A stretch of DNA of 64,000 nt from Clostridia bacterium (lineage in GTDB: Bacteria; Bacillota; Clostridia; Oscillospirales; CAG-272): contig JAFYBN010000070.1 of the NCBI GenBank assembly GCA_017540175.1, positions 1 to 64,000 on the forward strand. Direction: 5' to 3'. The position numbers and the translations under genes were made by a program. The notes under the pieces were generated by a model, which searched no databases, was not told the DNA's origin, and saw nothing but the letters and a program-made list of their open reading frames with translations. Positions 9,473-39,411 of the stretch are shown piece by piece (position 1 is the first letter of the stretch; every line of letters begins with the position of its first letter).

Positions 9473-9502
9473 GGCGGAGCATCCGAGAGATGCGTCATAT
9501 TT

Positions 9503-9584
9503 GGGGGAATTCCCGAGTGGCCAAAGGGGACAGACTGTAAATCTGCTGGCACCGCCTTCGGTGGTTCGAATCCACCTTCCCCCA
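9503..9584 (+). tRNA. tRNA-Tyr (anticodon GTA)
   Basis: An 82-base class II tRNA. The acceptor stem pairs GGGGGAA (9503-9509) with TTCCCCC (9577-9583), with A as discriminator. The anticodon loop CTGTAAA gives GTA (Tyr). The long variable arm contains CACCGCCTTCGGTG-like pairing, and the T arm is GGTGG TTCGAAT CCACC. CCA is not encoded. The anticodon stem has one A-C mismatch at its base. It is a solitary tRNA with its own promoter and terminator. Confidence 0.95.
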
Positions 9585-9625
9585 TTCAAAAAAAGAGAGG
9601 TACAAAGTACCTCTCTTTTTTTGAA
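9585..9625 (+). terminator. Terminator of tRNA-Tyr
   Basis: A 19-bp perfect inverted repeat (9585-9603 with 9607-9625) with an AAA loop and a run of seven T in the descending arm. Its symmetry means it could act on both strands. Confidence 0.9.
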
Positions 9626-9633
9626 CAGATTAG

Positions 9634-9721
9634 GGTGGATTCGAAGGGCGCGGGAGTGAATGACTGCCCAGTGGGCAGTCAGAGCCGCGCCCCGGCCGGC
9701 TCGGAAGCCGGCGAATCCACC
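9634..9721 (+). repeat. Folded element derived from the tRNA-Tyr 3' end
   Basis: CGAATCCACCTTCCCCCA at the right end copies the tRNA-Tyr T-arm and acceptor 3' half. It pairs with GGTGGATTCG at 9634-9643 to close a structure with inner stems 9646-9653/9685-9692, 9661-9670/9672-9681 and 9695-9701/9706-9712 (loop CGGA). Nearly every base is paired. It is followed at once by a terminator (9733-9760). It could be a decayed second tRNA unit, a short mobile repeat or a small structured RNA. Confidence 0.6.
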
Positions 9722-9732
9722 TTCCCCCATAG

Positions 9733-9760
9733 AAAAAGCCTCGCTTATGCGAGGCTTTTT
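9733..9760 (+). terminator. Terminator after the tRNA-derived element
   Basis: AAAAAGCCTCGC TTAT GCGAGGCTTTTT forms a 12-bp stem with a four-base loop and a T run; symmetric, so possibly bidirectional. Confidence 0.85.
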
Positions 9761-9762
9761 CA

Positions 9763-9936
9763 GTGAAATTTGCCCTTCGGGCAAGTGAAATGTGCCTGCG
9801 GCACGTGAAATGCGCATGAGCGCGTGAAATTTTCGCTTCGCAAAAGCGGGCAAATTTCATTTCACATTCGGCGGAGCCGAATATTTCACCGGCGGCGCAA
9901 GCCGCTGATTTCACCGCGCCGAAGGCGCGATTTCAC
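9763..9936. repeat. Nested mini-hairpin array, copy 1
   Basis: The left half is a series of small hairpins each introduced by GTGAAAT: TTGCCC-TTCG-GGCAA, GTGCC-TGC-GGCAC, GCGC-ATGA-GCGC and TTTCGCTTCGCAAAA. After a centre GGGCAAATTTCATTTCAC the right half has hairpins each followed by ATTTCAC: ATTCGGCGGAGCCGAAT, CGGCGGCGCAAGCCGCTG and CGCGCCGAAGGCGCG. The spacers of the two halves are reverse complements, so the whole array can also fold as one long palindrome. Not CRISPR: the units between spacers are palindromes, not unique sequence. Confidence 0.85.
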
Positions 9937-9973
9937 TCATACTTTTATCACGAAACCAGCCCCGCTCTCGCAA

Positions 9974-10125
9974 GTGAAATGTGCCTGCGGCACGTGAAAT
10001 GCGCCTGCGGTGCGTGAAATTTTCGCTTCGCGAAAGCGGGCAAATTTCATTTCACATTCGGCGGAGCCGAATATTTCACCGGCGGCGCAAGCCGCTGATT
10101 TCACCGCGCCGAGCTGCGATTTCAC
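9974..10125. repeat. Nested mini-hairpin array, copy 2
   Basis: A second array of the same design, starting at the GTGCC-TGC-GGCAC unit and sharing the centre and right half almost exactly with copy 1. The final unit is shortened (CGCGCCGAGCTGCG, no longer a clean palindrome). The last ATTTCAC is followed directly by the -35 box of the next promoter (TTTACA at 10126). About 37 bases of unrelated sequence separate the copies. Confidence 0.85.
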
Positions 10126-13318: not shown

Positions 13319-13360
13319 GAAAGTGAAATTTTCCGAGCAAAAATCGGTCTTATAGAGTGA
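13319..13360 (+). promoter_or_regulatory. Candidate non-sigma-A promoter element, copy 1
   Basis: The segment contains GTGAAATTTT and, 15 bases on, CGGTCTTATAGAGTGAA, just upstream of the first CxDPLCxH lipoprotein. A related segment precedes the second lipoprotein gene (14701-14742). There is no good TTGACA/TATAAT here, unlike nearly every other gene in the window. GAAAx/CGxTC resembles ECF sigma promoters, but this is only suggestive. Confidence 0.35.
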
Positions 13361-13385: not shown

Positions 13386-14693
13386 ATGAAAAAGCTTTTG
13401 ATCCTCGCCCTCGCGCTTCTGCTTTTCCTGCCCTCCTGCGGGAGCAAAAAGCCGGCGATGCCTTTTGCCGCAGATTCATCGGAATTCTGGTACGACGGAA
13501 GGCTGTTTTACAGAAATGACTGGGGGCGGCTCGCTTACCGGGGCGTCGGCGGCGACGAAATGATCCTCTGCTTTGATCCGCTGTGCACCCATACCGAGGA
13601 AGAAGGGTGTCCGGCGGTGGGCATCGTCCTGGGCCATCCCCATCTGGCGGTCACAGCGGACGAAACCGGTTCTCCCTCCGTATTTATCGCGGACATGTAC
13701 CGCGATAAAAACAGCGAAGAGCTTATGCCTGAGATCAAGCGGCTCGATCTTGCAGACGGCAAAATGACCGTCCTCCTCGCGCCCGCGCCGGGTCAGATCT
13801 GGGGCTTCTGGCTGTACGGGCAGAGCATCTATTTCACCACGTCCGCCGATGAGGAAAAGCTGGCGGGTACGGTTGTCTGGAAAATGGACGCGGACGGGAC
13901 GGGGCTGAAGGAACTCGCCCGGTATGAAGACCGCGACAGCCTGAGCGTCGTCGCCATTTTCGAAGAGGAAGGGAAGACCATGGTGATCTGGGGGGACTCT
14001 AACGACGCACAGTCCCTGTATCTTTCGCCCGAGGATTTTTCCGAGGAGACGAAGATCGCCGAGGGTGTCCCGCTCTTTCAGAATTTCATGCTGGACGGGT
14101 ATCTCTATTTCGCGCGGCGGACGGAGAGGGTTTTTCCCGCGCTCCTCATCGACGGTTACGCACAGGACACGCGCAGCGTCCGGGATGAAAACGGCATGGT
14201 CCGCGCGCGGGGGGAAATGCCGGAATGGGAATATGTCCGGATTCCTCTTGCCGATCCCTTCGCCGAACCGGAGGCGGTCGTCGGCGGGATCAAAGAGCCC
14301 AATTCGATCTGGAAGCCTCTCTGTATTTCCGGGAACACGGCATACGTGATCCCCTATGATCCTCTGTACCTCGAAACCATGACCGCCGACATGACCGGCG
14401 TCATCACCGGGGATGACGTACAGGACAGTTTCGGCGGCGAGAAAACGGAATTCTCCTACATCGTGGCGGATTCCGGAGGGAAAATCCTTGCGTTCGATCT
14501 CGAAACCGGCGGGACCCGGACGCTTGAGACGCCCGGATTTGACGCGAACAGGATCATCGGCATGGACGACGGCGCCCTGATCCTCGCCGGGACCGTTACG
14601 GATCCCGACCGCATCCGGGAAGATCTCGACGCGCACGGGGTTCACTCCTCCGACTTCACCTTCGGCGACTATCTGTTTCTCCCGGTTGAATAA
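13386..14693 (+). CDS. CxDPLCxH-family lipoprotein 1
   Basis: A 435-aa predicted lipoprotein (lipobox LPSC, Cys18) of a family with seven members plus fragments in this island. The family mark is C62-F-D-P-L-C67-T-H69 with a further Cys at 75. The body contains recurrent short strands such as GRLFYR, GQSIYFTT and GYLYFARR, a pattern seen in beta-propeller blades. It is closest to the protein at 23724-25037: both share YVIPxxPxYLET, SGGxIL, TPGFD and a DPDRIREDLDAHGV-type end. It lacks the extra Cys near residue 36 seen in other members. GGAGG precedes the ATG. Presumably an extracytoplasmic sensor or binding protein; no function is established. Confidence 0.75.
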   Translation: MKKLLILALALLLFLPSCGSKKPAMPFAADSSEFWYDGRLFYRNDWGRLAYRGVGGDEMILCFDPLCTHTEEEGCPAVGIVLGHPHLAVTADETGSPSVFIADMYRDKNSEELMPEIKRLDLADGKMTVLLAPAPGQIWGFWLYGQSIYFTTSADEEKLAGTVVWKMDADGTGLKELARYEDRDSLSVVAIFEEEGKTMVIWGDSNDAQSLYLSPEDFSEETKIAEGVPLFQNFMLDGYLYFARRTERVFPALLIDGYAQDTRSVRDENGMVRARGEMPEWEYVRIPLADPFAEPEAVVGGIKEPNSIWKPLCISGNTAYVIPYDPLYLETMTADMTGVITGDDVQDSFGGEKTEFSYIVADSGGKILAFDLETGGTRTLETPGFDANRIIGMDDGALILAGTVTDPDRIREDLDAHGVHSSDFTFGDYLFLPVE

Positions 14694-14700
14694 ACAAATG

Positions 14701-14742
14701 ACCGAAACAGTTTTTTCGAAGAATCCGATCTTATAGAATGAA
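14701..14742 (+). promoter_or_regulatory. Candidate non-sigma-A promoter element, copy 2
   Basis: CGAAACAGTTTT followed by CCGATCTTATAGAATGAA, matching the element at 13319-13360 in order and in the TCTTATAGA-TGAA block. It lies 26 bases before the next lipoprotein start. Confidence 0.35.
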
Positions 14743-14767
14743 AGCTCAAAACGAAAGGACAGGAATC

Positions 14768-15973
14768 ATGAAGCGCATACGGTTCGCGTCGCTTCTCCTC
14801 ATGCTGCTTGAGTTCATGGCCTGCGGGAAAGATGCGCTGTACTATCCGGACGGCGTGAAGCTCGAGGCGGAAGCACCCGCGCAGGAGAATAATCCGATTC
14901 CCGTGCTTGCCGATTTCACCATGCCCGCGCTTCCGCTGAACGAACGTGCGTCCGATCTTCCCGGAGCGGTCCTCTGCTCACGAGGGTGGGTTTTCCTTGA
15001 CAGGAACGGAATCCCGCGGGTGTACTCGCCCGGAGCCGGGACGGTCAACACGCTTTGCTCCGATTCGCTCTGTTCGCATCTGGCGGATTCCGCATGCGCC
15101 TTCCGTTCCTGTGTGTTTACCGAACTCCCGGTGCAGGCCGGGGATCGGCTGTGGTATATCGCGCGGGACGAATGGACGGAAGCTGACATGACGAAGAATC
15201 TGATCCCCGCCCGCTCCGTCTGCTCGTCCGACCTCTTCGGCGCGGACGTCAGACAGGTCTACCAAAACGACGGCGTCGAGCTTTTCGGTTTATACGCGGA
15301 GACGGACGCGATCTGGTGGCTGGAGGTGGTCGGCGACGAACAGTTCCTTCTGACCCGGATGGACCCGCGTTCCAAAAAGATTGAACGGATGCCCTGCGGC
15401 AGGGATGAGCACAAGGTCGTCAGAGAATACGTCCGCCTCGGGGATCGTGTTTACTACATTCTCGACGACGGCACGATCCGCTCCTGCAAGACGGATTTCA
15501 GCGACGACCGCCTGATCGCCGAGACCAGCGGGACGCCCCTCTATGCTTCGGAACGCACACAGCGGGTATATTGGCGGGAGAGCGGAACGCTCGTCTCTTT
15601 TGATCCCGCGTCGGGGCGGAAGGAAACGGCCATCGTCCCGCAGGAAGGGTTTCGGATCAACCTGATGCTCCCGACGGAATCCGGCTTTGCCTATACGCTG
15701 GTTCCGGAAGACGCGGAGCTCGGCAGGAGTTATCGGGAATACATCGATGCCGTAACGGCCGATCCGGCGCTCTGGTTGTGGGATCCCGTGACGGGGGAGT
15801 GCGGGCGTTTGTCTCTCCCGGAAGGGATCGTTCCGACGCCCCTGGCAGCCTATGCGGGCGGCATACTCTTCACATCGGGCATTCATGAAAACGAATGGAC
15901 GCATACCACCGCTTTTTCCGGATGGATCGCCTGTCAGCCAAAAACGGGGGAGGTATGGGAGGTCTCAGAGTGA
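14768..15973 (+). CDS. CxDPLCxH-family lipoprotein 2 (divergent)
   Basis: A 401-aa lipoprotein (lipobox FMAC, Cys19). The motif is divergent: C97-S-D-S-L-C102-S-H104, with Cys110 after it and Cys70 exactly 27 residues before it, so the four-Cys/one-His layout is kept although the Pro is lost. Blade-like strands (DRVYYILDDG, GFAYTLV, GGILFTSG) recur. The ATG at 14768 follows AAAGGACAGG; an in-frame ATG ten codons earlier would put extra charged residues before the signal peptide. The stop overlaps a possible GTG start of the next gene, suggesting translational coupling. Confidence 0.7.
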   Translation: MKRIRFASLLLMLLEFMACGKDALYYPDGVKLEAEAPAQENNPIPVLADFTMPALPLNERASDLPGAVLCSRGWVFLDRNGIPRVYSPGAGTVNTLCSDSLCSHLADSACAFRSCVFTELPVQAGDRLWYIARDEWTEADMTKNLIPARSVCSSDLFGADVRQVYQNDGVELFGLYAETDAIWWLEVVGDEQFLLTRMDPRSKKIERMPCGRDEHKVVREYVRLGDRVYYILDDGTIRSCKTDFSDDRLIAETSGTPLYASERTQRVYWRESGTLVSFDPASGRKETAIVPQEGFRINLMLPTESGFAYTLVPEDAELGRSYREYIDAVTADPALWLWDPVTGECGRLSLPEGIVPTPLAAYAGGILFTSGIHENEWTHTTAFSGWIACQPKTGEVWEVSE

Positions 15974-15984
15974 AAGGAAAGGGA

Positions 15985-16632
15985 ATGCGAAGGCGTCTTC
16001 TCGTCGGCGCGGCGATCCTCTTGCTCACATCCGCCGCGCTCGTCGGCTCTTACTTCTTTTTTGACTGGCAGATCCCGCGGGATATCAGGCTGACGAATCT
16101 CTACTACGTCGATATTTTTAAGGGAAAGCACACGGTATTCGGGGACGACTGCGACGCGATCCTTGTCACCGTTAAATCCGCGGTGAAGACGGATCCTTCC
16201 TCAAAGCGCACCGAGTACGCTTATTCCTCGGAGCGGGGCGATGGGGTATTCCTCTATCCCGGTACGCCGAAGGGGCAGATATACGGCTATCCCCGACTCC
16301 GGGAGGGCGAGCGTCTCTTTCTGCTCTGCAGCGCGGATCAGACGGCGCACTTTTCCTGGCTCTTCCGGGTCCGGACGGTCGACGGCACGGATTATGCCTA
16401 CCCGCTTCTGTACGATGAGGAAATGATCCCCCTGTCCGTACTCGGAGAAAGCCTGCCGTTTACGGGCAATGCCGAGCGGAGCATATACGATCCGTGGTAC
16501 GACGAGGACGTTTTCAAATACCTTGCGAAAACCGGACGTGCCGCTCCTGCGTACAAGTACAAAACGACGCTTGAAAATCTACTTGCGAATTACGGAAAGC
16601 TGACCCAAAGCGGCGGGCGGCAATACAGATAG
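15985..16632 (+). CDS. Single-pass membrane protein of unknown function
   Basis: A 215-aa protein with Arg-rich N-terminus and one membrane segment (about residues 5-24, LLVGAAILLLTSAALVGSYFF); the rest (about 190 aa) is predicted outside the cell. No Cys lipobox and no family recognised. The ATG at 15985 follows AAAGGAAAGGG; a GTG at 15970, overlapping the preceding stop and preceded by GGGAGG, is an equally good start and would add five residues. It sits between a lipoprotein and the ECF sigma factor, 27 bases upstream of the latter, so it is probably part of the same transcript. Confidence 0.65.
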   Translation: MRRRLLVGAAILLLTSAALVGSYFFFDWQIPRDIRLTNLYYVDIFKGKHTVFGDDCDAILVTVKSAVKTDPSSKRTEYAYSSERGDGVFLYPGTPKGQIYGYPRLREGERLFLLCSADQTAHFSWLFRVRTVDGTDYAYPLLYDEEMIPLSVLGESLPFTGNAERSIYDPWYDEDVFKYLAKTGRAAPAYKYKTTLENLLANYGKLTQSGGRQYR

Positions 16633-16659
16633 GATAATTTTATCAGAAAGGAGGCCCCC

Positions 16660-17211
16660 ATGACCGAGAGGGACATCATCACCCTGTTTTTCGCGCGGGA
16701 CGAGCGGGCGGTTGAGGAATTCCGCCGCGCGTTCGGCAAGCTGTGCCTCGGCATCGCGCTCTCGATCACCGGGGACGAGGGGACGGCGGAGGAATGCCTG
16801 AATGATGCCTGCCTGCGCCTGTGGAACGCCATTCCGCCCGAGAACCCGCGCTCGCTGAAAGCTTTCGGCGCGAAAATCACCCGCAACCTCGCGCTCGGGC
16901 GGCTCGAAAAAGAACGCGCGGCAAAGCGGAGCGCGGTGCTCGAGGAGTTTGACGAGACGGCGGAGCGCGCGAACGTCTCCTTTGAGGAGGATTTCATCGA
17001 ATCCGAAGCGCTCGCGCAGGCGATCGACCGCTTCCTCGCGTCAAGGAGCAAAATCGAAGCAGCGGTCTTCGTGCGGCGCTATTTCTCGGGGGAAAGCGCA
17101 AAGGAAATCAGCCGCGCGACCGGACTCGGCGAGGTGAAGATCTCGCGGATGCTCAAAAAACTGCGGACGGCTCTTGCCGCGGCGCTTGCGAAAGGGGGAT
17201 TTGAGGTATGA
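16660..17211 (+). CDS. ECF-type RNA polymerase sigma factor
   Basis: A 183-aa sigma-70 family factor with region 2 at about residues 12-85 (including the EECLNDACLRLWNAIPP segment for core binding and the NLALGRLEKERAAKR end) and region 4 at about 115-175 (AVFVRRYFSGESAKEISRAT, then a helix-turn-helix ending KISRMLKKLR). There is no region 1 or 3, as expected for ECF or ECF-like factors. A strong AAAGGAGG precedes the ATG. Its stop overlaps the start of the next gene (ATGA), so it is made together with the membrane protein that carries an anti-sigma-like N-terminus. Likely targets are genes of this island (inference). Confidence 0.85.
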   Translation: MTERDIITLFFARDERAVEEFRRAFGKLCLGIALSITGDEGTAEECLNDACLRLWNAIPPENPRSLKAFGAKITRNLALGRLEKERAAKRSAVLEEFDETAERANVSFEEDFIESEALAQAIDRFLASRSKIEAAVFVRRYFSGESAKEISRATGLGEVKISRMLKKLRTALAAALAKGGFEV

Positions 17212-19739
17212 AACGGAAACTGAAAGGAGCCGATCTCGCGCGCGCCGCCGGAGGAATCGACGGGCGCTGGATCGAGCTGGCATACAATGAAACAGAACTC
17301 CGCCGGGCGGCGGAGGAAAGCCGGAGCCGCCCCCGCCGCTGGCTCTTCGGCGCGGAGCTCAAAAAACTCGTCGGCGTGAAAACGGTATGGATCTTCCTCC
17401 TCATCTTCCTCGCGCTGAATTTCGCGCTGGCATGGCGGGCGGCGGGCAGAACTGCCGCGGCGCGCTATCCGAACGGGCTCGTCTCCCGCTTCTTCGACGG
17501 GTATTTCGAAAATACGGAGGAATACGAGGCGCGGTACGCAGAGATCCGGGCGTTCGCGGCACAGCAGAACGAACTGTTCTTTCAGGCTATGCGCGCGGGG
17601 CGGCAGGATTATGAATACGAAGAGCTCCCGAACCGCTATTCCGACGACGACGCGGTGAAGGATTCCGAGCTGTTCTCGCTCGTGTACGCCGCGCTCGATC
17701 AGTCCGAGGGTTATCCCGCGCGGCTCGAAAAGGTCATCGACGCGGCGAAAGCCAATCTGAGCGAATTCCGGCGCATGGGCATTTCGGAGGATTCCTACGC
17801 ATGGAAATACCAGACCGAGGTCATCCGGCGGTACGAAGCCATGCGCGGCACGGTGAAAATCGGCGTGGAATACGTGCGCGGGTGGGGCGATTATTTCGAC
17901 TACCGCCTCGGCGACGTGCTTTTGTTCCTGCTTCTGATCCTTCTGTGCTCCGTCGTTTTCACGCAGGAGAAGCAGGCGGGCTTTCTCCCGGTCCTGCGCG
18001 CCTCGAAGCGGGGCAGGGGGAAGACGGCGACCTTGAAGATCGCGCTGACGCTTTGTGTGACCTTGCTCTTCGTGCTGCTCTTCACGCTGACCTCATGGAC
18101 GGCGTTCGGGCTGAGGATCGGGTTTTCCTCGGCGGAGAACGCGCTGCAGGCGCTGCCGCAGTTCACCTATTCGCCGTACAGGATCACGGTGGGGAACTAC
18201 TTCGCTCTGACGGTCCTTGTGAAGCTCTTTTCGGCGTCGGTGTTCGCTTCGCTTCTGCTCGCGGTCTCGAATCTTCTGCGCTCCCCGGTCCTGAATTATA
18301 TCGCGGGGCTCGGGCTCTACGGCGTGAATCTGCTGCTCGGGCGGCTGGACGCGTCGAAGGCGGCGGCCCATTTGAATCTCGTGTCCGCCGCGGCGGCAAA
18401 CTCGCTCTTCACGCGCTACCGTGCGGTGAATCTCTTCTCCTCAGCGGCGGCGATGGTTCCCGTGATGCTCACGCTCTTCGCGCTGCTTCTGCTCGGAGGC
18501 GCCGTGCTCGCGGCATGGCTCCACACGCGCGGCGGCGAAGCGGTCAGCATCCCCTTCGCGGGTACGGTCATCGCGTCCGTTCTTACGGCTTGGGCGAGAT
18601 TTCGCACATCACTGAGGCAAAGGATCGCGGGACGCGCGGGCAAACGGAGGAGGGCAAGGAGCTATTCGCTCTCGCTGTTCTGGGCGGAGGTCTTCAAGAC
18701 CCTCGTGTCCTCGCGTTTCCTCATCCTGCTCCTTGTCCTGCTCGCGGCGAAGGGATGGTATTCCGCGCGGCTTTACGAGGCGAGACCCTCCTACGCCGAC
18801 GCGGTGTATCGGGAATACATGACCTTCCTCGAGGGCGAGCTGACCCCGGAGAAATCCGAATGGATCGCCGGGGAGAGGGCGCGGCTGAGCGGCATCCTCG
18901 CCGAAAAAACGCGGATGGAGGAGGCGTTCTTGAACGGGGAGCTCAGCTATGCGCAGTACCGGGACTATCTCTCGGAATACAGCTCGGCGGAGGCGCGGTC
19001 GGACCTCTTCACCGTGATCGAGGAGCATGAACGCTATCTCGCCGCACGGGGCTCGGGCTGGTTCGTGTACGACACGGGCTGGCGGCGGCTCTTCTCCGGC
19101 GACGCGGATCTCTTCCTCTATACGGCGGTGCTCCTGCTCCTCACGGGCTCCTTCGCGGGGGAATATGTGTCCCGCTCCTCGTCGGGCGGATTCGCGCAGA
19201 TCCTCCGGGCGACCAAGCTCGGGCGGCGCGAGACCTTCCGGGCGAAGCTCGTTTCGGCGGGCGTGATATCCCTGATCCTCGCCCTGTTGTCCTGCGTGAT
19301 CGACTTTGTGGTGATCGCGAAAAACTACGCGCTGCCGTCTCCCACGGCGCCCCTCGAATCGCTCGAGCTCTTCGGGGCTTACCGCGGCTCGCTTACGGTG
19401 ACGGGCTACGCGGCGCTCTTCATCGGTCTGCGTCTGCTCGGCGCGCTCTTCATGGCGATGCTCGTCTGCGCGCTCTCCGAGCTTCTGTCCCGCTACCTGC
19501 CCGTGCTCGGCTCGGCGGTGGCGCTGACGCTCTGCCCGGCGCTCCTTGCGGCGTTCGGCTGGCAGGCGGCGCAGCGGGTGAATTTCCTCTCCCTGCTCGC
19601 GGGAACGCCCCTCTTCCTCGATTCCGCGAAGCTCGGCCTCTTCGGCTCCGGCTGGTCGATGCTCGCGCTCTGGATCGCCGCCGCGGGGATCGGCGTCGCC
19701 GCGCTGATGTGGCCGGCGAAGAAGATGTTTGTGGAGTGA
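17208..19739 (+). CDS. Duplicated ABC-2-like permease with anti-sigma-like N-terminus
   Basis: An 843-aa membrane protein. Residues 1-45 are cytoplasmic and contain AAGGIDGRWIELAYN, the pattern found at the start of membrane anti-sigma factors beside ECF genes in Clostridia. Two homologous halves follow. Predicted membrane segments are near 59-77, 234-252, 276-299, 331-355, 360-378 and 412-437, then 501-515, 633-650, 680-704, 732-757, 763-785 and 817-835. Each half has a long outside loop after its first segment and then a matching F-x-x-E...G..x-LRA-x-K-x-GR-x-x-T...K motif (251-277 and 649-680), as in ABC-2 permeases. No ATPase gene is nearby. The ATGA overlap with the sigma gene implies coupling. 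A sensor or transporter controlling the sigma factor is plausible. Confidence 0.7.
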   Translation: MKRKLKGADLARAAGGIDGRWIELAYNETELRRAAEESRSRPRRWLFGAELKKLVGVKTVWIFLLIFLALNFALAWRAAGRTAAARYPNGLVSRFFDGYFENTEEYEARYAEIRAFAAQQNELFFQAMRAGRQDYEYEELPNRYSDDDAVKDSELFSLVYAALDQSEGYPARLEKVIDAAKANLSEFRRMGISEDSYAWKYQTEVIRRYEAMRGTVKIGVEYVRGWGDYFDYRLGDVLLFLLLILLCSVVFTQEKQAGFLPVLRASKRGRGKTATLKIALTLCVTLLFVLLFTLTSWTAFGLRIGFSSAENALQALPQFTYSPYRITVGNYFALTVLVKLFSASVFASLLLAVSNLLRSPVLNYIAGLGLYGVNLLLGRLDASKAAAHLNLVSAAAANSLFTRYRAVNLFSSAAAMVPVMLTLFALLLLGGAVLAAWLHTRGGEAVSIPFAGTVIASVLTAWARFRTSLRQRIAGRAGKRRRARSYSLSLFWAEVFKTLVSSRFLILLLVLLAAKGWYSARLYEARPSYADAVYREYMTFLEGELTPEKSEWIAGERARLSGILAEKTRMEEAFLNGELSYAQYRDYLSEYSSAEARSDLFTVIEEHERYLAARGSGWFVYDTGWRRLFSGDADLFLYTAVLLLLTGSFAGEYVSRSSSGGFAQILRATKLGRRETFRAKLVSAGVISLILALLSCVIDFVVIAKNYALPSPTAPLESLELFGAYRGSLTVTGYAALFIGLRLLGALFMAMLVCALSELLSRYLPVLGSAVALTLCPALLAAFGWQAAQRVNFLSLLAGTPLFLDSAKLGLFGSGWSMLALWIAAAGIGVAALMWPAKKMFVE

Positions 19740-19800
19740 CGGGGTACGCGGCTTCTTTGAAAAGAAGCCTGGCAAGAAACTTTAATATAGGGGATATCGA

Positions 19801-21057
19801 ATGAAAAAAATCATTTTCATCTGCGCGGTCCTGCTCCTTCTTTTGGCGGGGTGCGGGAAGGCGGAACCTGCGCCCGCGCATTTCAGCCGGCAGTGGAACT
19901 TTGTCCAGTGCGGGGACACGCTCTGGACGGGGGATACCGACGTGGAGGGCGTCGGCGATCTGTTTTTGAGCGGCGCGCTTGACAGGCAGGTCGCTCTCTG
20001 CCGCGATCCGCTCTGCGATCACGACGGGGCATTCTGTGCCGAGGATTTCCGGTACGGCACGATCCGGAATTATACGACGGACGGAGAACGCATCTACACG
20101 CAGATGCGGGACTCCGAGCGCGGCTACGAATACTGGAAGACAAACGGCGATCACAGAGCCTTTGCCGTGCTCGCCGTCCTCGACCCCGAAATCCCCGCCG
20201 GGATGCGCGAGCTGACCGTTTACGAAGAGAGCAGCTGGAGCAGAGGACAGCGCATCTCAGCCGCGGGCGGGTACGTCTATTACAGGGAAGCCTCGATCCC
20301 GGACGGCATGAAGTCGGACGAGTCGTCGCCGGAGGACTGGGTCGTGCGCATCATGCGGATCAAGTCGGACGGAGGCAGACCGGAGCGCGCTCCCGTGCGC
20401 GAGCTTTCCGTGGACGAAGCGTTTGAGACCGACGGGACCTTTGCCTGCGTCATCCCCGGCACGGGGGAGGTTGTCGAATGCGTCCCGCTCGAGGGCGGCG
20501 AAGCGTTTGTGCTCCCCTCTCCGGACGGAAAGACCGCGTCGGGCGTCGCCGTCACGGACTGCGGGACGTTCCTGCTCTGCAGAGACGTCGCGCGGGAGGC
20601 CGCGGGAGAAATGACCCCGTCGTACGTCCGCACCTCGACCGCCGTGTACCGGATCGACCGGAGCGAGGAGGGCTTCTCGTTCGCGCCGCTCTTCGGGGAC
20701 GCCGCGCGGGTGATCTTCTCGGACGGGTATATCTGGTATTCGACCCCCGAGGTTGCCTATTACGGCACGCCGACCTACGCGCCCGGGGTGGTGCAGGTCA
20801 CGGCTGTTAAGTTGGACGTTTTCTCCGAGACCGCGGGCGACCTCATCCGATACGATCCCGAAACGGGGGAGACAGCCCGGTGGACGGCGGATAAGCACAT
20901 CGTGTTTCAGGGATTCTCGGCAGGCTATGCCCTCGCGTTTCTGATCGATTACGATGAACTCGGAAGGACCAGCGAGCTTGACAAGACGCTCTATAAGCTC
21001 GTGCTGAACGACGACGGAAGCGTCACGATCGCCGGGACGATCGACACGGCGGAATAG
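19801..21057 (+). CDS. CxDPLCxH-family lipoprotein 3
   Basis: A 418-aa lipoprotein (lipobox LAGC, Cys18) with Cys37, then C67-R-D-P-L-C72-D-H74 and Cys79. Blade-like segments (GGYVYYREA, DGYIWYST) recur through the body. It belongs to the subgroup with 21133, 22365 and 25055, which keep Cys near residue 36. AGGGGAT precedes the ATG. It follows the permease gene by 61 bases, a gap that carries CTTCTTTGAAAAGAAG and GGCAAGAAACTTT, parts of a short interspersed repeat. Probably exported and anchored at the outer face of the membrane; ligand unknown. Confidence 0.75.
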   Translation: MKKIIFICAVLLLLLAGCGKAEPAPAHFSRQWNFVQCGDTLWTGDTDVEGVGDLFLSGALDRQVALCRDPLCDHDGAFCAEDFRYGTIRNYTTDGERIYTQMRDSERGYEYWKTNGDHRAFAVLAVLDPEIPAGMRELTVYEESSWSRGQRISAAGGYVYYREASIPDGMKSDESSPEDWVVRIMRIKSDGGRPERAPVRELSVDEAFETDGTFACVIPGTGEVVECVPLEGGEAFVLPSPDGKTASGVAVTDCGTFLLCRDVAREAAGEMTPSYVRTSTAVYRIDRSEEGFSFAPLFGDAARVIFSDGYIWYSTPEVAYYGTPTYAPGVVQVTAVKLDVFSETAGDLIRYDPETGETARWTADKHIVFQGFSAGYALAFLIDYDELGRTSELDKTLYKLVLNDDGSVTIAGTIDTAE

Positions 21058-21132
21058 GCGGCACGGCTTATCCGAAGCGAAGGCCCGCGATGCCGCGCAC
21101 GCCGCAAAGAACTTTCAAATGGGGAGGTTGGG

Positions 21133-22368
21133 ATGAGGAGAATCCTGATGATCTGCACGGCTCTGACGATGCTTTTTGTCTCCTGCGCACACCCCGTCCC
21201 GGCCCCGTATTTTGTGAACAACGAATTCGGCGGGGGCTGCGTGCTCGGAGATCTGTATCTCGAAGACCTTGGGGGAATCCGTACCGTAACCTATTCTCCG
21301 GACGGAAAAAGGGAAGGACTCTGCCGCGATCCGCTCTGCACGCACGAGTATGCGCGCGACGGTCTGTGTCCCGATGTCGCCGCCTTCGGAACCAAGTCCT
21401 TCGCAACGGACGGCACAAGGCTGTATTTTGCCTCGATCATTATGCGGCAGAATAACGCGGGACTGAAACGGGGAATCTACTCGATCCTGCCGGACGGTGA
21501 GGATTTCAAAATGCTGTACGAAGGGGAGATCGCGCCGAACAACAGTTGGGACCTTGCCGTCTCGGACGGATATCTGTATTTTGAAGAAGGGCATTACAAG
21601 GTCGATTATAATCCTCTGACGGATCGGACGGAGATCTCCGATCAATACGGAGCCATTGTCCGGATCCCGGTAGACGGAGGACAGGCCGAACAACTGACGG
21701 AGGAGCGGGAAGGCGTCGGCACGACCATCGCCGCGGACGAAAACACACTCTGTCTTGTGCGGGTCGGGCGGGACGGTGACAGCATCCTTGAGCGCATCGA
21801 TTGTGAAACCGGGGAAACGGTACCAATCCCGCTTCCCGGCGACTTCGAAAGCGTTTGGCCGAGATTTGTCGACGGTGCGCTTTACCTTGCGGCAGCGAAT
21901 TCCCGTACAGTCAAAGCGGACCGCGGCGACGGCACGGCGGCACACATGAGCGGGCAGGACTGGTTTCTGTACCGATTGACCGGTGACGGGTGGGAATGCC
22001 TTGCGGAAAGCGAGTCGCGCTTTGTGTTCGCCGGGGACGAGGTCTGGTTTGTCCGTGAGGGCGATGCTGAGTACCTCGGGACAAGGGCGTTTCCCACCGG
22101 CAGGGGATCGGAGACTGCCGAGCGGGACATATTCGATACCCACGCGCGCCGACTGTTCAGGCTCGATCTCGGAACCGGCGAAGGTGCCGAGCTTCCGCTC
22201 AACCGGGATATCGACCCGTCGGAATCCGTCGAGCTGATCGCCGTCGGAGAAACCGTCGTCTATATGATGCTCTCCGATCCGCATTTGCTTCTTGAGGGAA
22301 GCCCGTCAAAAACGCTCGTCTGCGCGAAACGTGATAATCTTTCCGTGATCTGGAGGTGCGAACCGTGA
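21133..22368 (+). CDS. CxDPLCxH-family lipoprotein 4
   Basis: A 411-aa lipoprotein (lipobox FVSC, Cys18) with Cys36, then C64-R-D-P-L-C69-T-H71 and Cys79. The C-terminal half contains PTGRGSET, a second mark shared with the next two subgroup members. GGGGAGG precedes the ATG. Its stop overlaps the GTG start of the following gene (GTGA), so the two were translationally coupled. Function unknown; the family layout (lipid anchor, short linker, Cys/His cluster, propeller-like body) suggests an extracytoplasmic sensor or binding protein. Confidence 0.75.
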   Translation: MRRILMICTALTMLFVSCAHPVPAPYFVNNEFGGGCVLGDLYLEDLGGIRTVTYSPDGKREGLCRDPLCTHEYARDGLCPDVAAFGTKSFATDGTRLYFASIIMRQNNAGLKRGIYSILPDGEDFKMLYEGEIAPNNSWDLAVSDGYLYFEEGHYKVDYNPLTDRTEISDQYGAIVRIPVDGGQAEQLTEEREGVGTTIAADENTLCLVRVGRDGDSILERIDCETGETVPIPLPGDFESVWPRFVDGALYLAAANSRTVKADRGDGTAAHMSGQDWFLYRLTGDGWECLAESESRFVFAGDEVWFVREGDAEYLGTRAFPTGRGSETAERDIFDTHARRLFRLDLGTGEGAELPLNRDIDPSESVELIAVGETVVYMMLSDPHLLLEGSPSKTLVCAKRDNLSVIWRCEP

Positions 22369-23545
22369 AAAAATTGCTGTTCTTTTGCCTTGCTGCCCTG
22401 CTCCTTGCGTCCTGCGCGAAGCCCGCCGACGGACCGCTTCCGCTTCCGCATTCCGTCCGCCGGAACGGGTGTCAGCTCGGGGACATGATCGTCCTCGACG
22501 GATTCCGCGGGAAGCCGAACGTGTACAGCGCGGCGTTCGATGAACCCGCCCTGCTGTGCCGTGACCCCCTCTGCGACCACTCGGGAAAGGACGGTCCCTG
22601 CCCGGAGAGCTTCGCGGGTCCCCGCTTTTTCTGCACGGACGGGGAGAAGCTCTATATGTGCGTCATGAACACGAGAAATCGCCGGGAAGGGGAGAGACCT
22701 TTTGAAATTTACGCCGTCGATCCCCTTGGCACGGAGCCGATGACCCTCGTCTGCGAGACGGAGAACACCGGGAACTACGGCACGGGCCGAATGCTGTACG
22801 CGGACAGCCGGTATATCTATTATCAGAATTCCGTCTACCGCGAAGGCGCGGATCCGAACGCGGAATATCAGGATCCCGCCGACCAGTGCTTTGAGATCCG
22901 GCGGGTGAAAAAGACCGGGGGACAGTCGGAGATCGTGTTCGATGATCTGCCCGTCTCGACGTTCTTCTCCGTGGACGAGACGCGTTATTTCCTGTTTGAG
23001 TCGGAGCCGAAAGCGCAAGGATCATCGACCGAGGGACCGGCGCGGAAACGGCAGTTTCCTTCGGAGGGCTTTCGATCGCCGATATCCTGCCCGCCGAGAG
23101 CCGCGTGTTCATTCTCTGCCGGGAGCCCGCCGTCACGGCAACCGTGACGGAGACGCTCAGCTGGAATCCTGTGTCGGTGTTCGAATACAGAGACACAGGG
23201 GAGAGCCGTCTCGTCGCGGAGCATGCGGACGAATGGACCGAGATCCTGTGGTACGACGGCAGACTGTGGTACGAGCCGTTTGTCCTCGAATTTCTTTATA
23301 CCGCCGATCTGCCCACGGGCAGGGGGAGCGAGACGGAGCGGCACGATGTTTACGCGACGACGGACGGCACGCTCTGCGCCGTCGATCCCGAAACCGGCGA
23401 GGTACATCGATACCGCTGCGTGAGCGAGGACGGCGAGGACGCGGATTTCTTCGGCATCTCCGGCGGCGGTCCCATCGGCGTGCGGGGCACGAGAGGCGAG
23501 GACGAGATCATCGTGAAGCTGAGACTGGAAGAGATTGCTGAATGA
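22365..23545 (+). pseudogene. CxDPLCxH-family lipoprotein 5, frameshifted
   Basis: The N-terminal part starts at the GTG at 22365 (GGAGG nine bases upstream; lipobox LASC, Cys17) with Cys36, C65-R-D-P-L-C70-D-H72 and Cys79. It reads in frame to about 23010, then runs into unrelated residues and a stop at 23147. The family sequence resumes in another frame from about 23012 (ESARIIDRGTGAETAVS) through LPTGRGSET to a stop at 23545. One base lost near 23005-23018 explains the break. Both halves keep family residues, so the change is recent or a sequencing error. Confidence 0.75.
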
Positions 23546-23626
23546 GCTGAAAACACAGCCTCCTCAGGAAGATAGTCCCAAACATGCGGAACCGCTGTGC
23601 ACCCTTCCCCGAGGAAAGGAGAAAGG

Positions 23627-23706
23627 ATCCGCGCGCACCTCGATCCACACGGCGTGACGAGCGCCAGTTTTTGATCGACGAGGATATCGTCGTACCAATT
23701 TCGTGA
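23627..23706 (+). pseudogene. 3' remnant of a sixth lipoprotein gene
   Basis: The reading RIRAHLDPHGVTSASF matches the last 30 residues of the next gene's product (RIRERLDQYGVRSASF, then LIDEDIVVPIS), with one base missing in the T run at about 23668. The rest of that gene is gone. It lies just upstream of 23724, in the position the previous array member's 3' end would occupy, so it marks a deletion or unequal crossover. Confidence 0.8.
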
Positions 23707-23749
23707 TAAAAGGAAATCCGGCTATGAAAAGAATCGGGATGCTTTTGCT
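23661..23749 (+). repeat. Direct repeat flanking lipoprotein 6, left copy
   Basis: The 89 bases match 24991-25080 with only two differences (one base missing in a T run and one A/G change). The repeat spans the 3' end of one gene, the intergenic spacer and the first codons of the next. Confidence 0.9.
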
Positions 23750-25037
23750 CGCTCTCGCGTTCTGCTTCGCCTCCTGCGCGGCGTCCGGCGGAGAGGAGGA
23801 CGCCGTCTTTGCCGCGTCCGCGCATGTGTTTTGCGGCGGCGGGTACGTTTTCTCCGCGGATGAATACGCGAGGATATCCTATCAGAGAGGGGACGGAGAA
23901 AAAATGCCGCTCTGCCTCGACCCGCTGTGCACGCATTTCGGACAGGACTGTCCGTCCTTCCTGAACTGGGGCAGACCGCAGATCGCGGTGCGGGAAGGGA
24001 AGGCTCCGATCGTCTTTTTCAGCGATATATGGGTCAGCCGCGAGGATCAATCCTGCGACGGGCGGCTGTACCGCTTCGATTTTGAGACCGGGGAGCGCAA
24101 AACGCTCGTCGAAGGGAAGTTCGAGCGCATCCACCGCTTCTGCCTCTTCGGGCGCGATGTCTATTTCTCCGTTCCTCATATGGAGGAGGTGAACGGAGAA
24201 CGGACACCGGCGGGCACGGAGATCTGGAAGGTCGGCACGGACGGCTCCGGACTCACGAAGCTGTGTGAATCGGAGAGTTCCGTGACTTTCGCCGCGATCT
24301 CCGAGCGCAACAAGACCCGCTCGATCCTTGTGACCGCCGTGCTCGGGGGGGCCGAACCGCGGCTCTGCGTCACGGAGGATGAATTCGAGACCCTCACCCC
24401 GCTCGGACCGGATTCGCCCGCCTACGGCGTCTTTGCCTCGGACGGTTACCTCTATTACGCGCGCCCGAGTGGGAAGGTCCTCCCCGCCATGACCGTGCCC
24501 GCTCACCCGCTCGACAAGACCCACGACTTCACGGACGACGGCGCGGCGATCATACGGGGCGAGACCCCGCTTTACGAATACGTGCGCGTTCCGCTCGACG
24601 ATCCCGGACAGACGCCGGAGGTCACCACATGGGGCGTCATGCGTCCGACGAGCGCCGATCAACCGCTTCTCGTCGTCGGGGACAGAATGTACGTCATCCC
24701 CTGCGAACCGGAATATCTCGAAACCATCGCGGCGTCGTCGAAGGGCGTGCTCACCGGCGGCATTGCCGACGACCTCGGCGAAACAAGAACGGAGGTCGAC
24801 TACATCGTCACCCAGTCCGGGGGCAGAATCCTCGAGATGACCCTCGACGGAGAGCTCATCCGCGAAATCCCCACGCCGGGCTTCGATCCGCGGCGTCTCA
24901 ACACCTCCGACGGTGAGAGGCTTTTTGTGAGCGGCTATGTCACGGACGGGGAGAGGATCCGCGAACGTCTCGATCAATACGGGGTGAGGAGCGCCAGCTT
25001 TTTGATCGACGAGGATATCGTCGTACCAATTTCGTGA
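23724..25037 (+). CDS. CxDPLCxH-family lipoprotein 6
   Basis: A 437-aa lipoprotein (lipobox FASC, Cys18), with Cys37, then C64-L-D-P-L-C69-T-H71 and Cys76. The C-terminal half matches lipoprotein 1 (YVIPCEPEYLET, SGGRILEM, TPGFDPRR, DGERIRERLDQYGV). The ATG at 23724 follows AAAGGAAAT; an in-frame ATG seven codons earlier overlaps the remnant of the previous gene and is less likely. Its signal peptide is nearly identical to that of the next gene because of the flanking direct repeat. Confidence 0.75.
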   Translation: MKRIGMLLLALAFCFASCAASGGEEDAVFAASAHVFCGGGYVFSADEYARISYQRGDGEKMPLCLDPLCTHFGQDCPSFLNWGRPQIAVREGKAPIVFFSDIWVSREDQSCDGRLYRFDFETGERKTLVEGKFERIHRFCLFGRDVYFSVPHMEEVNGERTPAGTEIWKVGTDGSGLTKLCESESSVTFAAISERNKTRSILVTAVLGGAEPRLCVTEDEFETLTPLGPDSPAYGVFASDGYLYYARPSGKVLPAMTVPAHPLDKTHDFTDDGAAIIRGETPLYEYVRVPLDDPGQTPEVTTWGVMRPTSADQPLLVVGDRMYVIPCEPEYLETIAASSKGVLTGGIADDLGETRTEVDYIVTQSGGRILEMTLDGELIREIPTPGFDPRRLNTSDGERLFVSGYVTDGERIRERLDQYGVRSASFLIDEDIVVPIS

Positions 25038-25080
25038 TGAAAGGAAATCCGGCTATGAAAAGAATCGGGATGCTTTTGCT
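24991..25080 (+). repeat. Direct repeat flanking lipoprotein 6, right copy
   Basis: Right copy of the repeat at 23661-23749; it covers the end of lipoprotein 6 and the start of lipoprotein 7. Recombination between the copies would remove lipoprotein 6 cleanly. Confidence 0.9.
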
Positions 25081-26308
25081 TGCCCTCGTCTTCCTCCTCC
25101 CTGCCTGCGCGAAAAATCCCCCTCCCGCCCAGCCCCTCTGGTTCAACGCGCAGTACAGCTGTTTTCTCGGCTCCGCCGCCTATGTCAGCGATTTGACGCG
25201 CATCACCGTCCATACCCCGGAGGGGATCCGGAAAGGACTATGCCGCGACCCTCTCTGTGACCACGACGGGAGCGACGGGATCTGCCCGGACTGCCATTCT
25301 CTTCGCTGGCCGGATGTTGTCACGGACGGGGAGCTGCTCTATCTCTCCGCGATGACCTTTGACGGCACGACGGGCGCGTATTCCCGCGAGCTTTACAGTC
25401 TGAAGCCGGACGGGAGCGATTTCCGCCTGATCTGCAAAACGGACATGACCGGGAGCGATTCGCCGGACTTCAAGGTCGGCGGCGGGTATCTCTGGTTCAC
25501 GCAGGGGCAGTACGACGAAGACAAACCCGCGGGAGAGCGCGAAACCTTCTCGATCCTGCGCGTACCCGTCGGGGGAGGCGAGCCGGAGACCGTCGGAGAA
25601 GGGTATCTGTTTGCGCCGGGTTTCACCGTCAGCACGGACGGAAAGACGCTCGCCGTGCTGAACGCTTCCTTCGCGTCGAGACCGGTGAACGCCCCTGCGT
25701 CTTCGGAAGGGGAGTGGATCGAGCTCGCCGACACGGAAACGGGGGAGAAAACGCTGATCGATCCTCCCGCCGCGGACGAAAACCCGGTATTTATCGATAC
25801 ATGGCGGGGAGAATTCTGGCTGCGGACGGAGAGGGACAGAATGCTTTCCTTCACCCGCGATTCCGGCGAGGCCGCCGAGCTGAGGCGGAACGAGTGGGTC
25901 CTCTACCGCCTGCCCGCGGAGGAAAGCAAATTCGTCCGGGTCGCCGAGGCTGACCTCGGCTTCGTCTTCGGCGGGGACGCCGTATATTTCACGCGCGAGG
26001 AAAGCGAATACACCGGAACGAAGCCCATGCCCACCGGACGGCCGGGCGAGTACCGGGACACGGATTTCTTCAGGACCAAAACCGTCGCCGTCGGATTCTG
26101 GAAGGACGGAGCCGTCACGGAAATCCCCCCGGCTCTCCCGGAAGGCTTCGAAATGCTGACCTTTACGGCGGGCGCGGACGGGATCCTCTACGGCAGCCTG
26201 AGCGACGGCGGGCGGGAATATTACGAGACGGGTGAAATCCACGCCGTCCGGTGCGCGCTCGACCCCGAAACGCTCGAGGTCATCCGGCTCTTTGACGCGG
26301 AGCCGTAA
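25055..26308 (+). CDS. CxDPLCxH-family lipoprotein 7
   Basis: A 417-aa lipoprotein (lipobox LPAC, Cys18) with Cys36, then C63-R-D-P-L-C68-D-H70, Cys77 and Cys80. It contains KPMPTGRPGEY, the PTGR mark of the 21133/22365 subgroup, while its signal peptide matches lipoprotein 6. The gene thus joins a 5' end of one lineage to a body of another, as expected from recombination in a tandem array. AAAGGAAAT precedes the ATG. It is the last member of the array, and a terminator follows at 26326. Confidence 0.75.
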   Translation: MKRIGMLLLALVFLLPACAKNPPPAQPLWFNAQYSCFLGSAAYVSDLTRITVHTPEGIRKGLCRDPLCDHDGSDGICPDCHSLRWPDVVTDGELLYLSAMTFDGTTGAYSRELYSLKPDGSDFRLICKTDMTGSDSPDFKVGGGYLWFTQGQYDEDKPAGERETFSILRVPVGGGEPETVGEGYLFAPGFTVSTDGKTLAVLNASFASRPVNAPASSEGEWIELADTETGEKTLIDPPAADENPVFIDTWRGEFWLRTERDRMLSFTRDSGEAAELRRNEWVLYRLPAEESKFVRVAEADLGFVFGGDAVYFTREESEYTGTKPMPTGRPGEYRDTDFFRTKTVAVGFWKDGAVTEIPPALPEGFEMLTFTAGADGILYGSLSDGGREYYETGEIHAVRCALDPETLEVIRLFDAEP

Positions 26309-30627: not shown

Positions 30628-32010
30628 TCAATCGGCGAGGACTGCGGCAGAACCGGTATAGAGATCGACCTGGGCGGTCGAGGGCGTGAGCTTTTCCCCG
30701 TCCTTCGACAGGACTTTTCCCGTAACGATCAGGATTTTCGGATCCGCCCCGAATTCCATGCGGTCGATCGTGTGGAAATAAGGGTAGACGGAGCCTGTAA
30801 GGTTTTTGGTCCCCCCCGCCTTATAGACGACTTGAAGTTCGTTCGTGTTTCCGCCCGTCGTCCCCGAAAAATACCCGCGGATCACATAGCAAAGATCGTT
30901 TTCGACGGTTTCGGCCTCGTGATAGAGAAACCGGTTTTTCAACGTGTCGAGCACGTCTTCCGCGGACGCGCCGGAAGGGATCGAACCTGTCTCTGGAACC
31001 TGCCCGATGTCTTCCGCAGAGACGGTTACGGTGACGGTATCGCCGGACTTTACCGTGAAGCCTTGATCAAAGAGGAAGGTGAAATCGACGTGTCCGTTCC
31101 CCTGCGATCTGAATAGATCGCCGCTCACGGCCTTGCCGTTCAGTGACACCGAAAAGACCTGTGCGACCGCTGTGCGCACCTGTGGGGTATTCGTGCCGTC
31201 GACAGAGTCCGCCAGGGAAGGGATCGGGAGGGTAGAGAGCGTGTCGAAGAGCTTCTCGCGCAGCGTTTTATGCGTATGGAACTGCTCCGGGTAAAACGCG
31301 AGGGTCACCTTTGCCGTAGGGACGGTCTCCATATTCCAGATCAGATCCATATTCGCGTCGCTCTTGTCCCTGCCGAAAAAGGTCGAAAAGGAGTCGGAGT
31401 CCTCCCCGACTGTAAAGGTGACCGTCATGCCGCTGTCCGTTGCCTGCGCTTCGGCATTCCACTGTTTGACAGGCTGCTGTTCGACCGCGTGACCGCCTGC
31501 GAAGACCTTGTAGGGCAGGGTAGTAAACATGGAAGTCCGGGAATCATTGTCATAAAGGACTTCGCCGTACCGTTCAAGATCACGGAAACGGATGCAGGTC
31601 TCGCCGTTGATGTTCCAGCTTTCGACTTCGTCTCCCGCGACCGTCGTTACGATGTCCGTATAGAGAATGTCATGGGCGGGCGTTCCGATCTTCCCGGCAG
31701 GTACGGAGGGCTTGTAGTCAGGATAGCTTGCGGGAGTCAGCGGCTCGCCGTCCTTTAGAGGGCGGACGACCTCGAGCCACCGTTCCCCGGCGTGCCAGAT
31801 CACGTGGAAACCGTACGCCCTCAGATCTTCCGCGACGATGACCGTATGGTTGTCCACGTTGTAGGAACGGAGCGGATGCCCGTCGATCTCGGCGACGATA
31901 TCCGTGTAGAGCGTATGGTTCACCACCGTGCCGATGGCGATAGCCGCGGCTGAAACGCTCAGCGAGAGCAGGAGAGCGGCGGCGGTCACAAAAGAAATGA
32001 GTTTTTTCAT
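30628..32010 (-). CDS. Secreted stalk-domain protein B
   Basis: A 460-aa exported protein: signal peptide to about residue 24 (AAAIA), then two copper-amine-oxidase-N-like stalk domains (about 27-80, LYTDIVAEIDGHPLRSYNVD; and about 112-165, LYTDIVTTVAGDEVESWNIN). A variable middle (about 170-350) and a C-terminal domain (about 355-450) follow. The last about 100 residues are nearly identical to those of the neighbour at 32161-33477, also at DNA level, while the middles differ. Stalk domains commonly position wall proteins; no enzyme motif is visible. AGGAGG precedes the ATG. It is last in the BlaI/BlaR1 strand group. Confidence 0.8.
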   Translation of the reverse strand: MKKLISFVTAAALLLSLSVSAAAIAIGTVVNHTLYTDIVAEIDGHPLRSYNVDNHTVIVAEDLRAYGFHVIWHAGERWLEVVRPLKDGEPLTPASYPDYKPSVPAGKIGTPAHDILYTDIVTTVAGDEVESWNINGETCIRFRDLERYGEVLYDNDSRTSMFTTLPYKVFAGGHAVEQQPVKQWNAEAQATDSGMTVTFTVGEDSDSFSTFFGRDKSDANMDLIWNMETVPTAKVTLAFYPEQFHTHKTLREKLFDTLSTLPIPSLADSVDGTNTPQVRTAVAQVFSVSLNGKAVSGDLFRSQGNGHVDFTFLFDQGFTVKSGDTVTVTVSAEDIGQVPETGSIPSGASAEDVLDTLKNRFLYHEAETVENDLCYVIRGYFSGTTGGNTNELQVVYKAGGTKNLTGSVYPYFHTIDRMEFGADPKILIVTGKVLSKDGEKLTPSTAQVDLYTGSAAVLAD

Positions 32011-32160
32011 TTTGTTTCCTCCTGTGTATGGATGCGGTTTTTCCTTTCAACCGTTAGACGTCCTGACGATTCCTGATGTTCCCGGTGGGATGCCGGTTTT
32101 TTCTGCATCGGATGGTTTTTCGTGTCCCGAATCAGAGGGGATCCGGTGCGTGTTTGCGGA

Positions 32161-33477: not shown

Positions 33478-33545
33478 GACAAAAATACCTTTCCGTGTTT
33501 TCCGCCGGAGGTTTTTCTCTCAAGCGGAGATCCCGCGCAGGTCGT

Positions 33546-39410: not shown

Positions 39411-39411
39411 T

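Follow-up and report, generated by a model that had tools for sequence, protein, structure and literature searches.

An ABC-2-like permease with an anti-sigma-type N-terminus as the putative regulator of an ECF sigma factor in a lipoprotein-rich locus of a Clostridia bacterium

The locus and the question it raises

The genome of a Clostridia bacterium (Oscillospirales, CAG-272; GCA_017540175.1) that probably lives in an animal gut, a 3.9-Mb draft of 125 contigs that is 93.5% complete, contains a locus in which the genes for an extracytoplasmic function (ECF) sigma factor and a large ATP-binding cassette (ABC)-2-like permease lie within an array of lipoprotein genes. The locus was studied in a 64-kb stretch of this genome (contig JAFYBN010000070.1, positions 1 to 64,000; hereafter the window), where the genes run on the forward strand from 13386 to 26308 in the order lipoproteins 1 and 2, a protein with one transmembrane (TM) segment, the ECF sigma factor, the permease and lipoproteins 3 to 7. 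An earlier note on this DNA had listed the one-TM protein, the sigma factor and an 843-amino-acid ABC-2-like permease, and these gene calls, all on one strand, stand. It had also proposed a membrane regulator that holds the sigma factor, which raises the question of whether a permease can serve as an anti-sigma factor. Gene linkage, a shared promoter type and the kinship of the permease tail with anti-sigma proteins favor that proposal, which has to be widened since the permease is more than a regulator, probably half of an ABC transporter. On these comparisons, the locus is likely to be an autoregulated ECF sigma factor module in which the permease of an ABC-2-type transporter acts as the anti-sigma factor, coupling the two.

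An anti-sigma-type segment at the permease N-terminus

The sigma factor gene (16660-17211, forward strand) was identified by matches to Sigma70_r2 (37.7 bits, cutoff 24) and TIGR02937 (64 bits, cutoff 42.9); Sigma70_r4_2 scored 20.1 bits, below its cutoff of 25.7. The permease gene (17208-19739, forward strand) overlaps its end in an ATGA junction (17208-17211). A 4-base overlap with the downstream gene is common to all seven close sigma paralogues of the genome and to 22 of 26 sigma genes with a readable frame in the family, and the proteins encoded there mostly contain one TM segment and start like MKxxxLLDAIGxIDDDLIEEA. No curated family name was found for these one-TM anti-sigma-like proteins. 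The window permease has 11 hydrophobic segments in a simple hydropathy count and is thus not a single-TM protein of their kind. Elsewhere in the same genome (L036:4610-6570; L and C numbers denote loci and contigs), the protein encoded behind a paralogous ECF sigma gene combines an anti-sigma-like start, one TM segment and a serpin domain (PF00079, 3.7e-60).

Roughly the first 43-45 codons of the permease gene (17208-17342, forward strand) had been noticed before for their likeness to a clostridial anti-sigma start, and comparison with relatives bears this out. Among 86 non-redundant permeases (frames below 600 amino acids excluded, copies sharing their last 300 residues counted once), an ECF sigma gene immediately precedes 21. 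The start codon of these permeases lies 1 to 14 bases ahead of the point where the sigma stop codon ends, and at exactly -4 in 18 of them. In all 21, the overlapping start yields 30-55 residues ahead of the conserved first segment of the permease (43 in the window). The 65 permeases without a sigma gene include 59 that lack any start codon allowing at least 25 such residues, five that start near the segment despite a longer frame, and one that could not be placed. The additional segment, or tail, is therefore restricted to permeases whose gene immediately follows a sigma gene.

When 20 permease tails were aligned by hhalign with the starts of 32 one-TM anti-sigma proteins, the two profiles matched over 26 columns with a probability of 93.8% (E 1.7e-7). 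The model of the 32 anti-sigma starts was built without permeases; L088 was kept despite a start that looks wrong, no downstream frame was obtained for L072, L080 and L094, and L089, a permease, was left out. A first run of this model covered 32 permeases (initial 60 residues), 480 other proteins and 640 shuffled sequences, and placed the window permease behind eleven other sigma-linked permeases as well as a shuffle and an unrelated protein. In a second run with all 86 permeases, the 36 matches listed include 17 of the 21 sigma-linked permeases, the window's among them, and none of the sigma-less ones. The 15 residues preceding the first TM segment carry a mean net charge of +3.4 in the 21 fused permeases vs +1.5 in 58 others, as would be the case for a cytoplasmic end. 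The tails do not fit the description of class I anti-sigma domains: they comprise 30-55 residues, 20 of 21 being shorter than 50, and none of the 20 aligned tails contains the zinc signature Hx3Cx2C. As far as the sections of PMC7406223 on class I domains go, these carry Hx3Cx2C where present, and the data set omits domains shorter than 50 residues as possible members of class II.

Two promoter-like sites of a shared type

Two features of this system are missing from the earlier note: the ATPase of most relatives, which the window operon lacks, and a pair of promoter-like sites. Nine sigma genes at other loci have a common upstream pattern, consisting of a -35-like GGCAGA (or GAAACA), 16 bases, and GTCWTATA..RTGA. 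A position weight matrix trained on these nine sites recovered each of them as the best match when it was left out. Applied to the window, the matrix scored 31.4 bits at 13321-13360 (forward strand; TGAAAT, then GTCTTATAGAGTGA) and 29.7 bits at 14702-14741 (forward strand), with a third-best score of 3.0 and a best score of 14.6 bits in 100 shuffled windows. Both sites directly precede lipoprotein genes (1 and 2). Across 1.48 Mb of loci, in which some contigs are present twice, 15 unique non-training sites reach at least 18 bits, including the two of the window; ten of them lie before lipoprotein genes (the L044 site being weak at 19.1 bits and the L040 site 158 bases away), another three precede ECF sigma genes, and the other two are located elsewhere. 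As the sites sit before lipoprotein as well as ECF sigma genes, lipoproteins, sigma factor and permease very probably form one regulon. The window sigma factor would itself read these sites, given that they precede sigma genes of the same group.

In the whole genome, the -10 pattern yielded six matches with up to two mismatches vs one in the control, and only the two of the window hold under the matrix. The stretches around seven other sigma paralogues of the genome scored at most 12.1 bits. A weak place (10.1 bits at 222) precedes the sigma gene at 326 in L038.

The permease as putative half of an ABC transporter

Pfam ABC2_membrane_4 matches the window permease at 17.6 bits, under its cutoff of 27, and the permease profile has no relative among solved structures (best E 0.58). 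The description of the permease as duplicated rested on judgement by eye, and is helped by relatives with two shorter frames in place of one (L107, L110, L111, L112, L115 and L118). The best named matches are gut or rumen metagenome assemblies labelled Oscillospiraceae, Ruminococcus, Clostridiales or Clostridia. At 15 of 26 loci from named genomes, a sigma gene directly precedes an intact or contig-cut permease, usually in the order sigma factor, permease, lipoproteins and ATPase, often with further lipoproteins. The closest paralogue in the same genome, which is 54% identical (contig C7), likewise has a sigma gene before it and lipoproteins and an ATPase after it.

An ATPase gene is encoded within 11 kb of 65 of the 86 permeases (15 of 21 with a sigma gene and 50 of 65 without), and several of the others end at a contig edge. 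As most relatives have such a gene nearby, the window permease probably contributes the membrane half of an ABC transporter. Similarity of the ATPase to GldA, DrrA and lantibiotic-protection ATPases stays below cutoff in each case. ATPases 81-85% identical to that of L046 are encoded elsewhere in the genome, on C7, C6 and C13. That these are so similar while the permease is only 54% identical to its C7 paralogue suggests that one ATPase type may serve several permeases. Very similar copies or pieces of the ATPase lie on C6, C13, C20 and C47 (L231-L236), two of them at contig ends (C6 and C47), which suggests recent copying and assembly breaks at repeats.

Within the same family, the permease was matched at 1e-40 in 78 of 295 genomes searched, and class-wide at 1e-20 in 26 of 391, the source genome being counted in both. 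In 28 class-level loci, an ATPase was identified in 22 and a lipoprotein-like motif in two (L100 and L101); no sigma gene was found in the short flanks of these loci. The distant permeases of L100 and L101, from another family of the order, adjoin proteins with CNRPECKH or CNRPDCKH, possibly a wider form of the lipoprotein family described below.

Origin of the fusion

In a tree built without the tails, in which start calls were internal for some rows (e.g. L029 and one of L167) and some sigma-less rows lack their first part as a result, 20 of the 21 sigma-linked permeases form one clade (SH-aLRT branch support 99). The remaining one, L031, falls into a separate clade with sigma-less permeases, so that the sigma-link label requires two changes on the tree. 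L031 also has a different sigma class, and its tail resembles the anti-sigma starts usual for that class, being the best match of a six-sequence model of these starts (E 0.018). This model left out L215 (the query), L220 (no frame) and L222 (a zinc-type anti-sigma protein, by eye). Because L031 stands apart in the tree and is linked to another sigma class, tail and sigma factor were probably coupled on two separate occasions.

Loci that look like the unfused stage expected before fusion were also identified. In L180 and L181, a sigma gene is accompanied by a separate one-TM protein at the corresponding place, together with lipoproteins, permeases and an ATPase, and L028 encodes a sigma and one-TM pair of the other type about 0.6 kb before a lipoprotein-permease pair. 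The anti-sigma model matches the one-TM proteins of L180 and L181 with E values of 0.0046 and 3.5e-5, respectively, and the outer parts of both proteins do not match the lipoprotein profile. L180 as a whole is a dense, fusion-free form of the module, with three permeases (one cut by the end of the stretch), two sigma genes that are each paired with a one-TM protein, several lipoproteins and an ATPase.

The lipoprotein family

An alignment of the seven window lipoproteins, with lipoprotein 5 represented by its first part, has ten invariant columns. Across a larger aligned set of 36 members from this genome and others, which does not contain lipoproteins 2 and 5, residues C63, D65, P66, C68, H70 and C77 (lipoprotein 7 numbering) are invariant. 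The 36 were picked by a motif pattern that fixes two of the cysteines and restricts the D, P and H places, and the invariance of the motif columns is therefore partly due to selection; C77 was not part of the pattern. With three cysteines and a histidine so close together, this region may form a metal site or disulfides.

A whole-genome DNA search for CxDPLCxH returned 27 sites vs none for a reversed-pattern control, and 23 of the 27 lie less than 6 kb from one of the ten permease genes, which indicates that the lipoprotein array is more than chance. Counted by contig, eight of twelve motif contigs carry a permease, against a 3.7% share of the genome (binomial P about 1e-9). All ten permeases found in the genome, the window's included, adjoin at least one lipoprotein of the CxDPxCxH type, so that the link between these genes goes beyond position. 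The motif also occurs on contigs without a detected permease (C47:978, C60:112978, C69:19495 and C116:18278); the C47 motif belongs to a lipoprotein gene on a 4.8-kb contig.

Pfam and NCBIfam contain no family that matches the window lipoproteins above cutoff. Three of these reach 10.9-13.4 bits for DUF5050 (PF16472), under the cutoff of 27, and the others have no match; within the set of 36, two members match DUF5050 (best 1.9e-9). By sequence, the profile of the 36 matches beta-propeller chains in the PDB (2ojh, 1.4e-4; a TolB, 1.1e-3), which suggests a propeller shape for the lipoproteins.

Proposed mechanism and alternatives

In the favored reading, the cytoplasmic permease tail of about 43 residues would bind the sigma factor encoded just before it, and the permease would pair with an ATPase encoded elsewhere in the genome and act together with the lipid-anchored, probably propeller-shaped lipoproteins on the outer face of the membrane. 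Contact of the transporter with its substrate or with a partner lipoprotein would make the tail release the sigma factor, which would then transcribe from both promoters, that of lipoprotein 1 and that of lipoprotein 2 with the genes that follow, yielding more of the set. A more specific version, for which the chance seems slightly short of even, holds that the ABC-2 transport cycle gates the release of the ECF sigma factor from the permease tail, that exchangeable propeller-like lipoproteins set specificity, and that ancestors in which this transporter was accompanied by a separate anti-sigma protein gave rise to the coupling two or more times. The lipoproteins, which the earlier note saw as feeding the regulator, could equally be binding subunits, cargo or a protective output.

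Several observations weigh against this reading. The window tail taken by itself matches the anti-sigma model weakly: the start form LxxAIGxIDDxxIxxA behind a sigma gene characterizes the clade (E 1.7e-7), and the window by itself reaches E 0.39 in the first run and 0.61 in the run with 86 permeases, so that the anti-sigma case is carried by the clade. L042 (0.9), L052 (3.2) and L031 (6.6) score worse than the window tail, and L051 is not among the matches listed. As 20 of the 21 fused permeases share one ancestry, the co-occurrence of tail and sigma gene represents about two events rather than 21, and the match on which the second is partly based (0.018 for L031) is modest beside a shuffle that reaches 0.11. 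The anti-sigma model also matches lipoprotein signal peptides in L179 (E 0.0047-0.043), and the L180 match therefore means little alone; that of L181 is better than these. An ATPase gene was searched for near the window operon and not found, and the paralogous C7 module (L010 and L027; best 3.5 bits) has no promoter of the shared type. Finally, intact lipoprotein relatives without the motif exist (e.g. L040:8158, L041:6923 and L053:3409), and the motif is thus not strictly required.

The most serious alternative, which we regard as plausible at a clearly less than even probability, is that the transporter has an export function of the peptide-resistance or lipoprotein-export type, with sigma factor and lipoproteins as its regulated output and the lipoproteins as cargo or protection instead of sensors. 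The resemblance of the ATPase to GldA, DrrA and lantibiotic-protection ATPases and the divergent lipoprotein genes downstream of the promoter-like sites agree with this possibility. Nothing specific was found to oppose it; it leaves room for an anti-sigma tail and departs from the favored reading mainly in the role of the lipoproteins.

A reading in which the tail is an anti-sigma segment but the signal is something other than transport, with the permease acting as a membrane anchor that reads stress outside or undergoes proteolytic cleavage in the manner of RsiW-type systems, appears rather unlikely. Close sigma paralogues do precede one-TM proteins with the same kind of start, and this start, being found on a serpin as well, can evidently be joined to very different outer parts. 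Against this, an ATPase gene has been kept near 15 of the 21 sigma-linked permeases, and about two origins of the coupling fall within a single transporter family; both points favor a role in transport without being decisive. That the genes are neighbors without functional coupling is very improbable in view of the clustering of permeases and lipoproteins across the genome, the occurrence of the tail only with an upstream sigma gene, its roughly two origins and the shared promoter type.

Lipoprotein array and neighboring features

All genes of the array are encoded on the forward strand, and the seven related lipoprotein genes, one with a broken frame, and the remnant of another are present about where they had previously been placed. 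Lipoprotein 1 (13386-14693) carries the motif CFDPLCTH, and lipoprotein 2 (14768-15973) the degenerate form CSDSLCSH; the latter has a close relative at L040:6272-7462 (E 1.4e-210). The one-TM protein (15970-16632) has relatives at L040:7459-8109 (1.7e-82) and, more weakly, L009:5875-6822 (4.2e-8), both of which sit near a permease. Downstream of the permease follow lipoproteins 3 (19801-21057; CRDPLCDH), 4 (21133-22368; CRDPLCTH) and 5 (22365-23545; CRDPLCDH). The frame of lipoprotein 5 is broken into 22365-23147 and 23105-23545, and the second part by itself matches the lipoprotein profile at 5.8e-20. Between lipoproteins 5 and 6 lies the 3' remnant of a further gene (23618-23705), identified by direct repeats (23618-23672 with 24948-25002, 80%; 23668-23780 with 24999-25111, 90%) as the end of another lipoprotein-6-like gene. 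Lipoproteins 6 (23724-25037; CLDPLCTH) and 7 (25055-26308; CRDPLCDH) complete the array, the last having 75-82% identical relatives in L046, L041, L053 and L043; the next called gene begins at 26423 on the opposite strand. Among the gene overlaps previously listed, the ATGA junction and the GTGA at 22365-22368 (lipoproteins 4 and 5) are present, and the GTGA at 25034-25037 hinges on the start of lipoprotein 7, for which the ATG at 25055 is equally likely.

Upstream of the array (9502-10025), the window contains a tRNA-Tyr followed by two Gut-1 RNA matches (9761-9835 and 9948-10025). Further downstream, at 30628-39774, two neighboring reverse-strand genes (460 and 438 amino acids) have similar starts and lie next to genes for a 1954-amino-acid protein with five TM segments and a 120-amino-acid protein that by eye resembles a BlaI-type repressor.

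Relation to known systems and implications

The window module shares the sigma gene, the 4-base overlap and the same kind of N-terminus with the one-TM anti-sigma ECF modules of the same genome and family, and differs from them in that the partner is a many-TM permease and that lipoprotein arrays and, in relatives, an ABC ATPase are part of the module. In Bacillus subtilis, the sigY-yxlCDEFG operon likewise combines an ECF sigma gene with an ABC transporter; however, its negative regulators are separate small proteins, and it is not known to include a permease tail or a lipoprotein array.

If the favored reading is right, the best functional parallel would be the Bce modules, in which, according to the part of PMC10314905 that covers them, the response is governed by a complex of an ABC transporter and a signalling protein; their output is a histidine kinase, whereas here a sigma factor would be held by the permease. 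ECF257 sigma factors also have ABC transporters nearby and count among the groups without a cognate anti-sigma factor in the ECF257 entry of PMC8999054, an entry that describes no permease fusion. An anti-sigma segment on an ABC permease is not described in the excerpts of the literature searched, a search that did not extend to the 2021 ECF reclassification, so that its absence is unproven.

Should the proposed coupling hold, transcription would directly follow the activity of a transporter, and neither a kinase nor a stand-alone anti-sigma protein would have to relay the signal. Such a compact circuit would resemble Bce sensing, except that its output is a sigma factor. The coupling would further assign a function to a so far unnamed lipoprotein family on the surface of gut bacteria and provide a promoter by which the regulons of these lipoproteins may be located.

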